Part shown: piece by piece, positions 682-41,425 of the stretch | Numbering within the stretch: position 1 is the stretch's first letter | How the letters are laid out: each line of letters opens with the position of its first letter | Assembly (NCBI GenBank): GCA_016218705.1 | Contig: JACRDC010000064.1 | Location: forward strand, 1 to 61,424 | Length of the DNA stretch: 61,424 bases | Origin: Desulfarculus sp. | GTDB lineage: Bacteria; Desulfobacterota; Desulfarculia; Desulfarculales; Desulfarculaceae | Direction: 5' to 3' | Program-made: the position numbers and the translations under genes | Notes under the pieces: model-generated | Database searches by the model: none | What the model was told of the DNA's origin: nothing | The model's input: the letters and a program-made list of their open reading frames with translations, nothing else

Positions 682-787
682 GCGATCAAGGCCATCCATG
701 GCCTTGATCGCCTATCGGCCGGGCAAAAACGTGGTTTTGCCCGGCCTCCCGGGCGCTGGCGCGCCCGGCGGGCCATCCATGGCCCGC
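682..787. repeat. Hairpin-string repeat, copy A1
   Basis: Four perfect hairpins in a row within 106 bases. H1: GCGATCAAGGCC (682-693) pairs with 700-711, loop ATCCAT. H2: GGCCGGGCAAAA (717-728) pairs with 735-746. H3: CCGGGCGC (749-756) pairs with 761-768. H4: GCGGGCC (768-774) pairs with 781-787, again with loop ATCCAT. H1 starts 12 bases after the mce stop codon. A second copy of H1-H3 lies at 13025-13111. The remaining gap before nifU (788-928) holds a GCTGACGTCAGC palindrome but no gene. Confidence 0.8.
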
Positions 788-928
788 GTGAGGCTGACGT
801 CAGCGCCAGGCCTGAATATAGCAGCGGACCGTGAATGCACGGGCCGTGGAGCTTATGGCTCGTTCCCGCCGCGCAAAGGCGTTACTCGATATTCCCGGGC
901 CGCCAGGCCCGCCAATTAGGAGACGAAC

Positions 929-2982: not shown

Positions 2983-2990
2983 TGTAGGTC

Positions 2991-3148
2991 GGCGAAAGCC
3001 TTCCGTGGCTTTCGCCTCTTGCGCTTGCCAAAAGTAAATTTTGGCAAGCTTCCGAAATCGCGCCAAACAGGATTTTGGCGCGATTTCGGGCGGGCCGTCC
3101 TGGCCCGCCACCCAGGAGCCTGTCCGAGCAGTACCGCGACATGCTCCT
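2991..3148. repeat. Hairpin-string repeat, copy B1
   Basis: Five hairpins in tandem just after the nifS stop. H1 GGCGAAAGCC/GGCTTTCGCC (2991-3016). H2 GCTTGCCAAAA/TTTTGGCAAGC (3023-3049, loop GTAAA). H3 CCGAAATCGCGCCAAA with its 16-bp partner (3052-3089). H4 GGCGGGCC/GGCCCGCC (3089-3109, loop GTCCT). H5 AGGAGC...GCTCCT with an inner TGTC/GACA (3114-3148). A reverse-oriented copy of the same length class is at 38884-39041. The order of hairpins and the loop sequences are the same while stems differ by paired changes. Confidence 0.85.
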
Positions 3149-3232
3149 GGATCAGCGGACATACCCGCCGGGGCCCACCTTGGACAAGGCCGGCCCCGGC
3201 GCCCCGCCCACTCCAGCCCGGGAGGCCTGGCC

Positions 3233-12964: not shown

Positions 12965-13278
12965 CTGTCATTGCCAGGAGCGTAGCGGCGAAGCAATCTC
13001 CCGCTTCGCTCTTAATACCAATATGCAATCAAAGCCATCCATGGCTTTGATTGCTGATCGGCCGGGCAAAAGCGTGATTTTGCCCGGCCTCCCGGGCGCT
13101 TACGCGCCCGGCGGGCCATCCACCGGGGCCCCCAAAAAAGCGCGGCTTTTTTGGGGTGGTTCTTGGCCCGCATACCCAGTTGCGATCAAACTATTCATTT
13201 GATCGCAACTGGGTATGAAAGCATTTAAAAAACAAGAACGAAGCGGGAGATTGCTTCGCTGCGCTCGCAATGATGGCT
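12965..13278. repeat. Composite repeat island: outer inverted repeats around five hairpins (copy A2)
   Basis: The outer arms (12965-13013 and 13233-13278) are inverted copies of a CATTGC...GAAGCAATCTC-type repeat, a class I know as widespread in bacterial intergenic DNA. Inside are five hairpins: GCAATCAAAGCC with partner (13025-13054, loop ATCCAT); GGCCGGGCAAAA with partner (13060-13089); CCGGGCGC with partner (13092-13111); CCCCAAAAAAGC with partner (13130-13156); and a 20-bp perfect stem (13171-13190 with 13198-13217). The first three match copy A1 near 0.7 kb. The long stretch 12897-13461 has no credible gene. Confidence 0.8.
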
Positions 13279-38786: not shown

Positions 38787-38883
38787 GCCGCCCACCTCCG
38801 CCGCCTGTGTGGATGCCTGCATCCATGCTAGCAGATGGGCGGGCGCCTGGCGGGGAAAAGGCGCGCGGCGAGGCGGGGGCCGC

Positions 38884-39041
38884 TAGGAGCCTGTCGGAGT
38901 AATACGCAGACAGGCGCCTAGGGCGGGCCAGGACGGCCCGCCCGAAATTCCGCCAAATTCCTATTTGGCGGAATTTCGGAAGCTTGCCAAAATTTACTTT
39001 TGGCAAGCGCCAAGAGGAGAAAGCCATGGATGGCTTTCTCC
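38884..39041. repeat. Hairpin-string repeat, copy B2 (reverse orientation)
   Basis: The same five hairpins as copy B1 in inverse order: TAGGAGCCTGTC with 38909-38920 (one mismatch); GGGCGGGCC with 38935-38943; CGAAATTCCGCCAAAT with 38963-38978; GCTTGCCAAAA with 38998-39008; and GGAGAAAGCC with 39032-39041 (loop ATGGAT, the reverse of ATCCAT). Read on the minus strand, it starts 10 bases after the stop codon of the UPF0280 gene, just as B1 starts 8 bases after nifS. Confidence 0.85.
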
Positions 39042-39050
39042 GACACACTC

Positions 39051-39914
39051 CTAGACCCGGCGCGCCAGCAGGCCGCCGCCGGCCTGGCGGGTGATGACCA
39101 GCTTGCGCCCCGAGACGCTGAAGTGGGCGCCCACCAGAGGCAGGGCCAGGAGCAGGCGGCGGGCCAGGGCCTCGCCGCCGGCCAGGGCCTGGGCCGCCTC
39201 GTCATCGCTGAGCGCGTCCACGTGGGTGGTGACCATGAACTCGGGCACGTCGGTGTTAGGGTCAAGTTCACGGGCCGGCACCCGCGTCACCCTGGGCGAG
39301 TCCACCCGGCAGGCCCCGGCCAGCACCGTGGCCGCCGCGTCGGCCAAGGCCCCGTCCGCGCCCCACACCGCCACCTGCTCGGCCACGCCCGGGCTGAAGC
39401 TGCGCCCCGGCCAACCACTGGTGGCCACCCCGCCCACGCCGTCGCCGCCGCGCAGGCTGAGCTGGTGCCCCAACGGTCCGCCCGGGAACAGCGGCAGCCC
39501 CACGAGCAACCGCCGCCCCAGCGCCAGCCGTAGCGCCAGGTCGCCGCCGTTGTTCACCACCACCTTGTCGGCGCCCAGGTTCCAGGCCGCTTGCGCCACC
39601 TGGCCGGCCACGGCCCCGGCCACGGCGGCCAGGGGCGTCAGGCGCACCCCGCTGGCCAGGGCAACCTGGCGGCAGGCCTCGGCAGCCGCGGCCACCACCG
39701 CTGGCCTGCGTCCCCGCCGGGGCAGGTCCAGGACATCCAGTTTGAGGTAATGCTGGAAGTCGGCCAACTGGGCCAGGAGTTGCAGGGCGTGGGCCGCCGC
39801 CTTGGCCGCCATCACCGGCCTGGGCTTGCCGCCGGCCCAGGCCCGCACCGAGAGCGTCATGGGCCCCCAGTCCACCACCACCAGGTCAGGGCGCAGGACC
39901 CTTATGGGCTCCAT
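39051..39914 (-). CDS. UPF0280 family protein (ApbE-like fold)
   Basis: A 287-residue protein matching the UPF0280 family, distantly related to the flavin transferase ApbE. Visible ApbE-like elements are TPLAAVAGAVAGQVAQAA (93-110), VVVNNGGDLAL (121-125 NNGGD), GVATSGWPG (164-167 ATSG) and the ADAAATVLAGA block (191-201). The ATG at 39914 lies 13 bases inside the preceding 6-hydroxynicotinate reductase-like gene, so the two are co-translated. The E. barkeri reductase carries a covalently bound flavin. A transferase-like partner made with it could attach that flavin; this is inference. It is the last gene of the leftward catabolic operon. Confidence 0.85.
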   Translation of the reverse strand: MEPIRVLRPDLVVVDWGPMTLSVRAWAGGKPRPVMAAKAAAHALQLLAQLADFQHYLKLDVLDLPRRGRRPAVVAAAAEACRQVALASGVRLTPLAAVAGAVAGQVAQAAWNLGADKVVVNNGGDLALRLALGRRLLVGLPLFPGGPLGHQLSLRGGDGVGGVATSGWPGRSFSPGVAEQVAVWGADGALADAAATVLAGACRVDSPRVTRVPARELDPNTDVPEFMVTTHVDALSDDEAAQALAGGEALARRLLLALPLVGAHFSVSGRKLVITRQAGGGLLARRV

Positions 39915-41425
39915 GTTTTGGGCTCGTGGGCCGGGAAGGGCTTCATGGCCGCCACGTGACCGCCCATGGCCCGGTAGTCCACTAGGCGCATGGTGTACTC
40001 CAGGGGGCATACGGTGGCCGGCGTGGGCACCCAGGTGAAGCTGCCCGGCCGCACCCGCTCCACGTCCACGTAGAAGGTGATGCCGCCTCCCGGCAGCACG
40101 AAGACCGGCGCCCCGCCCACGGTCAGGGTGGCCTGGCCGGCATGCACGGCCTTGGTCAGGCGCAGGGGATAGCGGGCCACTCCGGCCCGCGCCGACCCGC
40201 CGGCCCCGCCCACGTACACCGCCGAGACCCGCGAGTGCTGGCAGGTCTCGGCGATGGCCGCCAGGGCTTCGCTGGCCGCCGGGGTCAGGGGGATGGGGTG
40301 GTACTGGCCGTCGGCCCCCAACTCGAAAAGGGCCGCCCGCTCGCCGGTGGTCTCGGTGATGAACAAGGTTCTGCCCACCGGCGTGCGGGCGATATCTATG
40401 TTGGCGATGATCTGGAGCGGGTCCGTGATGTCGGTGCCGCCCCAGCCCTGGCCCGGCCGGCCAAAATAGCGGCCCGGCGTGGAGCGCTGGAAGCACAGCT
40501 CCAGGCCTAGGGGCTCAAGCCCCAGGCAGCGGCCAGCGGCGTGATGGCTGAACAGACTGGTGATGTGGGCGTCGAGGACGATCACCTCGTCGGCGGCCTT
40601 CTGCAGAAACGGCGCGAAGAGGCCCGCCGTGGCCGAGCCGCAGCCCACGCGCATGCGCCCGGCGCGCTGGCCGTTAATCACGGGCGCCTCGCCCACGCGC
40701 ACCTCCAGGCTGGCCCCGCCGCGCACCTTTAGCCTGATGCTCTCGCGGTTGGCGATGGCCGCCACGGCTCGCGCCGCCGCGAAGCCGTGCTTGCCGGTGA
40801 GCCGGTTGACCCCGCCCAGGGCCAGGATCTTGGAGCCGTACTCCTCGGTCTCCACCATGCCCACGGGCCGGCCCTCGAAGGTGACGATATCCCCCTCCTG
40901 GCCCAGGTGCAGGTCTGTGTCCACCTTCACCTTGACCCCGGAGTAGGAAAGCGGCGCCTCGGTGACCGCCGTGACCACCTCCACGCCGTCGCGCGCCGAG
41001 GTGACGATGTAGGGCGCGGGCACGTAGTCGGGGTAGGTGCCGCCAGCGCCGATGGCGGTAATCAGCGGCCTGGCCAGCAGAGGGTCAGCCAGCGGCCCTA
41101 CCTGGTCTTGCACCTGGGCGTAGGTCAGGGGCAGCATGCCCCGCTCCAGACGGCCATCCTGGTTGCGGTAGCGGCGGCAGGCCCCGGTCAGGCCCGGCGG
41201 CACCCGGCAGCCCACCGGGCAGGCCGCGCAGGCCAGCACGCCCGGGGCCAGGGGCTCCTCCTGCTCGCTCACCGCCCCGGCTGGGCAGACCTTGAGGCAG
41301 GTGCGGCAGAGCACGCAGCCCTCGGCGATGCGGGCCTTCTTGTCCTTGAGGGCGATGACGCCCAGGGGGCAGTCACGCACGCAGGTGCCGCAGCCGGTGC
41401 AGGCCTGGGCGTCTATACGCATCAT
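39902..41425 (-). CDS. 6-hydroxynicotinate reductase-like FeS flavoprotein
   Basis: Expected to reduce 6-hydroxynicotinate to 1,4,5,6-tetrahydro-6-oxonicotinate with ferredoxin. The 507-residue protein opens with two [4Fe-4S] motifs (Cys9, 12, 15, 19 and Cys37, 40, 43, 47), followed by four more cysteines (66, 69, 73, 83) that could hold one [2Fe-2S] cluster. That set equals the cofactor content reported for the E. barkeri enzyme. The large C-terminal part has no familiar fold but includes FITETTGERAALFEL and LPGGGITFYVDVERV. The start overlaps the molybdenum-subunit stop (ATGA). Related proteins are widely annotated this way, so substrate identity rests on the enamidase nearby. Confidence 0.82.
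   Translation of the reverse strand: MMRIDAQACTGCGTCVRDCPLGVIALKDKKARIAEGCVLCRTCLKVCPAGAVSEQEEPLAPGVLACAACPVGCRVPPGLTGACRRYRNQDGRLERGMLPLTYAQVQDQVGPLADPLLARPLITAIGAGGTYPDYVPAPYIVTSARDGVEVVTAVTEAPLSYSGVKVKVDTDLHLGQEGDIVTFEGRPVGMVETEEYGSKILALGGVNRLTGKHGFAAARAVAAIANRESIRLKVRGGASLEVRVGEAPVINGQRAGRMRVGCGSATAGLFAPFLQKAADEVIVLDAHITSLFSHHAAGRCLGLEPLGLELCFQRSTPGRYFGRPGQGWGGTDITDPLQIIANIDIARTPVGRTLFITETTGERAALFELGADGQYHPIPLTPAASEALAAIAETCQHSRVSAVYVGGAGGSARAGVARYPLRLTKAVHAGQATLTVGGAPVFVLPGGGITFYVDVERVRPGSFTWVPTPATVCPLEYTMRLVDYRAMGGHVAAMKPFPAHEPKTWSP

Follow-up and report, generated by a model that had tools for sequence, protein, structure and literature searches.

The window, meaning the whole 61,424-nucleotide stretch of DNA that we analysed, is one entire contig of a Desulfarculus genome of 4.21 Mb in 126 contigs. 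It holds two copies, B1 and B2, of an element of about 169 nt made of five hairpins (hp1 to hp5), and two copies of a family, A, that is also matched by the covariance model R1 built from B copies. The features are as follows.

682-795, forward strand: family A copy, hp1-hp4 part (R1 match, E 1.8e-14)
2984-3150, forward strand: B1, five-hairpin element, immediately 3' of the stop codon (2980-2982) of an aminotransferase class-V gene
2991-3016, forward strand: B1 hp1, read from the sequence as GGCGAAAGCC-TTCCGT-GGCTTTCGCC
3023-3049, forward strand: B1 hp2, read from the sequence as GCTTGCCAAAA-GTAAA-TTTTGGCAAGC
3052-3089, forward strand: B1 hp3, perfect stem of 16 bp
3090-3108, forward strand: B1 hp4, GCGGGCC-GTCCT-GGCCCGC
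3114-3148, forward strand: B1 hp5, terminal hairpin, imperfect
13013-13217, forward strand: family A copy with five hairpins and module M in the hp4 loop (R1 match at 13025-13141, E 6.4e-12)
38883-39053, reverse strand: B2, complete element with CTAG at each end
38885-38919, reverse strand: B2 hp5, terminal hairpin bearing the terminal inverted repeat
38923-38941, reverse strand: B2 hp4
38942-38979, reverse strand: B2 hp3, perfect stem of 17 bp
38982-39008, reverse strand: B2 hp2
39016-39041, reverse strand: B2 hp1, GGAGAAAGCC-ATCCAT-GGCTTTCTCC

An earlier note on this DNA had described copies at 2991-3148 and, inverted, at 38884-39041, with the same hairpins in the same order, the same loops and paired differences in the stems. 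Both copies and their common order are borne out, and the likeness is far above chance (86% identity across positions 1-161 of the query, E 3.5e-48, in a search of the own genome); the element extends past the noted limits, out to a CTAG on each side (38883-39053 for B2). The loops agree in hp2 (GTAAA), in hp4 (GTCCT) and in the AGGA core of hp3, but the hp1 loop reads TTCCGT in B1 and ATCCAT in B2. Paired stem changes are found once in hp1 (A-T to C-G) and twice in hp3, while hp2 and hp4 are identical between the copies and the differences in hp5 are unpaired. A Pfam search of 39054-40496, a putative gene neighbouring B2, gave no match.

Copies, ends and insertion sites

By DNA search, the own genome carries 10 near-complete B copies plus a tail of fragments, with far higher numbers in its sister genomes, and B matches occur in seven of 60 genomes including the own one, namely the four of genus g1 (G000-G003), G010, G020 and, weakly, G050. 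When 84,980 species genomes, possibly excluding records of the own genome, were searched for the 18-letter hairpin core plus four letters, 14 stretches were found, all in MAGs labelled Deltaproteobacteria, Desulfarculus sp. or Desulfarculaceae, labels that point to the order Desulfarculales. Family A was scored at 40 places or more in the own genome, where R1 matches A and B together at 100 places. One further locus of the own genome (L014, contig C99) represents a third subfamily with the same four hairpins and other stems (B model, E 9.5e-15), and it lies just 3' of a stop codon. Module M, as listed from G000-G003, is a small hairpin whose paired interior is hypervariable between two constant boxes, GGGGTCCCC and GGGGTGG; the pattern GGGGTCCCC-N(8-38)-GGGGTGG occurs at 80 sites in the own genome vs 2 in a reversed-pattern control. 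It often stands in tandem pairs about 38-41 nt apart and inserts into hairpin loops of A and B.

The B element ends in inverted repeats, TAGGNGNSTGTCGGAG-like at both ends, which are paired about 169 nt apart, or closer in short derivatives of about 72-108 nt; these derivatives keep both ends and the CTAG and occur as separate insertions. Among the 22 B copies that could be parsed, 17 have TA on both sides, and in 12 of these the flanks are CTAG/CTAG. For family A, the left end was located in 23 copies from 30 loci and both ends in 19, of which 12 have identical TNA flanks. In G007, where the element is about 211 nt long, 16 of 23 copies are flanked by an exact 5-bp duplication. These target duplications show that the elements are mobile. 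B itself is without room for a transposase. Of the features of MITEs, B shows terminal inverted repeats, the B, A and G007 elements all show target-site duplications, and A and B together have many short copies lacking a transposase. The relatives of B1 and B2 are best read as an order-wide MITE superfamily.

Under a simple GC3 rule for calling genes, which serves for all neighbour, orientation and CTAG counts here in place of annotation, a gene ends at the left edge (in element orientation) of 13 of the 37 distinct B copies and at the right edge of 8, one copy having both. CTAG is five-fold rarer in the window than base composition would give (36 sites vs 183 expected), and 12 of the 36 sites are stop codons, so that a CTAG target alone leads to gene ends.

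Regarding the enzyme, likeness points to a candidate autonomous parent in one relative genome, G006. Transposase genes or pieces at L271, L261 and L278 all match PF13751, and DUF772 was found in L271 and L278, the two tested. The transposon pieces of this genome carry DUF772 and DDE_Tnp_1_6 domains, which we take to mark the family IS1182, and the copies look broken, with split frames. Their ends (CAGGCTGTTGACAAAGTCC in L271, similar in L261, or CAGGCTGTTGAAAAAG in L278) closely resemble those of the hairpin strings, and L271 is flanked by two copies of a terminator-like hairpin. The transposon and the strings share both an end sequence and a site between duplicated terminator-like hairpins; unlike an IS1182-type insertion sequence, a string is too short to hold a transposase, and the window's genus yielded no parent of this kind. 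There, a PF13751 profile search in G000 and G003 gave no match, which speaks against IS1182 as the parent within that genus, and the own genome showed no transposase with matching ends. A terminal-repeat search for an autonomous partner revealed no pair at transposon spacing that we noticed in G000-G003, G010 and G020, and none among the matches listed for G007.

Two further observations concern G006. L278 (contig C26, about 537-1831) is a 1.3-kb insertion sequence with perfect 16-bp CAGGCTGTTGAAAAAG ends 1.3 kb apart and a transposase in two frames. At least five of the 13 strings listed (L187, L256, L257, L259 and L260), judged by eye, lie directly 3' of a terminator-like hairpin that recurs on the far side, as if duplicated at insertion.

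Stem changes within the genus and across the order

The claim that the stems co-vary was examined on many more copies than the two of the window, and it holds. In an alignment of 39 copies from four genomes (A2), 94.8% of 1775 cells pair, and 15 of 48 stem pairs are changed on both sides; hp4, which MAFFT had misaligned, is excluded from this count. Cells with a double change number 60, vs 18.2 in shuffles (none of 500 reaches 60) and 3-11 with slid partners. The earlier note had proposed a count of compensated versus single changes. When each copy is compared with the consensus of its own genome (38 copies, 1701 cells, leaving aside the outer hp3 pair and the A/B chimera L006), paired Watson-Crick changes number 30, vs 1.2 expected under independence, so that the paired class is about 25 times its chance expectation. 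The same count gives 86 one-sided, 5 double unpaired and 4 repairing changes; in raw numbers, one-sided changes thus outnumber paired ones 86 to 30, and a majority of unpaired changes is what the earlier note had named as refuting its claim. Module M behaves similarly under a search pattern that imposes no pairing on the interior: among those taken there are 61 distinct interiors with 25 different left arms, and 90% of their cells are Watson-Crick vs 74% with the arms shuffled (within length classes only, one long interior being excluded).

A covariance-model search, likewise proposed by the earlier note, extends the pattern to the order. R1 comprises hp1-hp4 from 24 copies of the genus, and at a threshold of E 0.001 or better it matches 10 of the 21 genomes of the order, in seven of eight genera; neither G004, G005 and G013 nor any of the eight g4 genomes gave a match. 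In the 40 matches fitted to the model, each of the 44 pairs shows a two-sided change in some match, the share of paired cells is 94.1% vs 66.4% when shuffled, and double-change cells number 414 vs 102.6. This alignment (A4) was made to follow the structure of the model, which biases its pair counts in that direction, and the 34 loci it draws on were hand-picked as representatives. Between groups, stem identity is 0.56 in hp1, 0.58 in hp2, 0.39 in hp3 and 0.87 in hp4, and loop identity is 0.86 in hp4 and 0.66 in hp1. The conserved loop is RTCCAT; in hp2, GTAAA and GCGCGG are the most frequent loops. Between genera, hp4 and its RTCCAT loop are nearly fixed while all 44 pairs co-vary.

Single copies, few and picked by inspection, point to whole-arm rewriting. 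At L102, hp3 has a perfect 17-bp stem (CCTAAAGTGCGCCAAAT) where 11 of 14 G002 copies have a C.A mismatch, and its right arm shows several simultaneous differences and a 4-nt gap at the junction. L120 has a perfect 31-bp palindrome where a module sits in hp4, a place at which the related L104 and L172 are imperfect. In G003, L104 has the paired form of a left-arm change that L061 and L072 carry as a mismatch. The rewriting of a whole arm to fit the other in L102 and L120 points to template switching, as judged from these sequences. Elements also appear to be assembled from parts. In the chimeras L006 and L165, A ends are joined to B bodies at the hp1 loop; in L168-L170, hp1 and hp4 are fused at RTCCATGG; and module M sits in the hp1 loop of L004, L011 and L172, in the hp4 loop of L104 and L172, and in the hp2 loop of the A copy L047. 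Given that chimeras, fusions and insertions of M all lie at loops, the shared loops are the joints of a mosaic.

Strand preference and the upkeep of complementarity

The genus set has 22 G.U column-types vs 19 A.C (totals that include L006 and the outer hp3 pair). Order-wide, hp1, hp2 and hp4 of 37 rows give 994 Watson-Crick, 6 G.U, 13 A.C and 15 other among 1028 cells, 3 of the 40 rows having been dropped as wrong-strand or spurious matches. In hp3, G.U exceeds A.C (27 vs 12), with part of these cells in two badly aligned columns; in the 40-row table, 14 U.G lie within two hp3 columns. Module M has 17 G.T vs 9 A.C. Relative to the neighbouring genes, 7 of 37 B copies are in ++ and 7 in -- context, and in six other genomes (68 copies) the counts are 16 and 17; for family A (19 copies) they are 6 and 2. 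We read these counts as showing no clear strand preference. As G.U is not clearly above A.C and orientations are balanced, there is no visible selection for a single RNA strand; a fixed-strand RNA function was ranked low on these counts, with hp3 and module M mildly opposite.

In our view, B1 and B2 are probably MITE-like, non-autonomous copies of a five-hairpin transposon, moved in trans by DDE transposases, with stems that are kept complementary at the DNA level mainly via template switching. Here hp1 and hp5 would hold the terminal inverted repeats and hp2-hp4 would form an internal skeleton. A DDE transposase, suggested by likeness in one relative genome, may move the element in trans, and the element would land at TA within CTAG, often a gene's stop codon, where insertion would do little harm. 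A mutated arm may be overwritten at the replication fork, where template switching would copy the other arm in its place, and transposition may in addition select for the foldback. In the long run the stems would be rewritten letter by letter or in tracts, with the layout and some loops persisting. We infer such an enzyme in the window's genus, template switching as the main cause, and any role of the fold. The earlier note had left it between selected structure and correction of one arm by the other during replication; DNA-level arm correction is the better supported, though selection may still have a share. The conserved loops need more than arm correction, and the mild excess of G.U in hp3 and of G.T in module M would also be expected from RNA selection. 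The surplus of one-sided changes within genomes, the negative transposase searches in the window's genus and the 6 to 2 contexts of family A also weigh against our reading.

That the hairpins act as RNA, be it a terminator, a 3' UTR stabiliser or a small RNA, with co-variation arising from selection on the RNA fold, appears quite improbable. Co-variation with conserved loops is its classic sign, and elements often start right after stop codons, as in the 13 B copies with a gene ending on their left edge. Against this, the 8 copies with a gene ending at the opposite edge have the other orientation, ++ and -- contexts are balanced, most stems show no clear surplus of G.U over A.C, and Rfam covariance models gave chance-level matches only (best 18.7 bits vs a gathering cut-off of 90). 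The lack of a clear strand preference is in line with selection on a DNA fold with little arm correction, in which a cruciform or single-strand hairpin would serve transposition or some host function, for example as a two-way terminator. The persistence of the layout and of RTCCAT loops across genera also agrees with such selection. However, single compensations do not suffice for L102, with its junction gap and arm rewritten at several sites, or for the 31-bp palindrome of L120, and we regard this account as unlikely.

Recombination at shared loops, by which whole hairpin modules would be swapped between elements so that stems only appear to co-vary as blocks, we hold to be unlikely to the same degree. 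The hp1-loop chimeras, the RTCCATGG fusions and the loop insertions of M all speak for it, yet isolated single-pair changes in otherwise unchanged stems (L001, L054, L055, L056 and L007) are hard to see as block swaps. That the elements belong with REP/BIME/REPIN sequences, which tyrosine transposases of the RAYT type mobilise, is by far the least credible of these readings. REPINs, too, are dispersed extragenic hairpins with compensatory changes, at least as characterised in PMC3116915. Nevertheless, the RAYT domain PF01797 (Y1_Tnp) has no match in the element-carrying genomes G007 (23 copies), G001, G009 and G020, whereas it is present in the element-free G008, G016 and G018; G000 has two weak partial matches. 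RAYT presence does not track the element, and on this phylogenetic profile a REP/RAYT origin was rejected; the clean target duplications likewise stand against it.

A bolder reading, which we offer tentatively and hold to be rather unlikely, would make the five-hairpin skeleton itself the lasting unit. It would be a replicator of DNA structure, kept order-wide via arm-templated self-repair and fixed loops, borne by at least three transposase systems (TA, TNA and 5-bp duplications, terminator-hairpin targets), with end hairpins exchanged at RTCCAT loops.

Relation to known elements

Earlier work, in parts of PMC2229807, PMC3116915 and PMC3733652, already covers MITEs, mosaic repeats and dispersed hairpins with compensatory changes. 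The earlier note knew no named family with this layout; this stands insofar as there is no Rfam match, no RAYT link and no described family that we found, but the elements are MITE-like and hence of a described kind. A search of open-licence PMC texts found no paper describing these elements, nor a multi-hairpin element kept over an order with nearly all of its stem pairs replaced. With bacterial MITEs such as Correia/NEMIS, ERIC and RUP, in the passages of the review PMC2229807 that treat them, they have in common a length of 100-200 bp, terminal inverted repeats, a terminal TA, high base-pairing and many copies. In those passages the two ends form a single stem-loop (two arms in CIR), whereas here a whole order retains five separate hairpins in a fixed succession, with altered stems and several duplication types.

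For REPINs, which are dispersed bacterial hairpins, paired stem changes have been published before (in part of PMC3116915), and the portions of PMC3116915 and PMC3733652 concerned with REPIN/REP sequences describe dispersed palindromes in which compensatory stem changes are common, with subfamilies that have alternative complementary stems. G.T pairing is often observed there in GTAG repeats. Unlike these, the present elements have no RAYT link that we found, and they have target duplications, five hairpins with terminal repeats and no clear G.T excess.

Template switching, in the account given in sections of PMC8794818, should yield multiple simultaneous compensated changes as well as longer stems, and L102 and L120 show footprints of the kind listed there. 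The cases treated in those sections are RNA genes, e.g. rRNA and microRNA; here they are mobile DNA repeats. With dozens to about 100 copies per genome, of many ages and with mismatched forms surviving, these elements preserve a natural record of the upkeep of perfect hairpins in DNA, and they make template switching vs selection countable. Strong stem co-variation is often taken to prove a functional RNA, and its occurrence here without visible strand preference calls for caution in searches for non-coding RNA.

The layout itself varies in G010, where a four-hairpin unit stands in tandem directly 3' of a stop codon at two places, three times at 129 nt in contig C106 (L110) and twice at 132 nt in contig C28 (L112).
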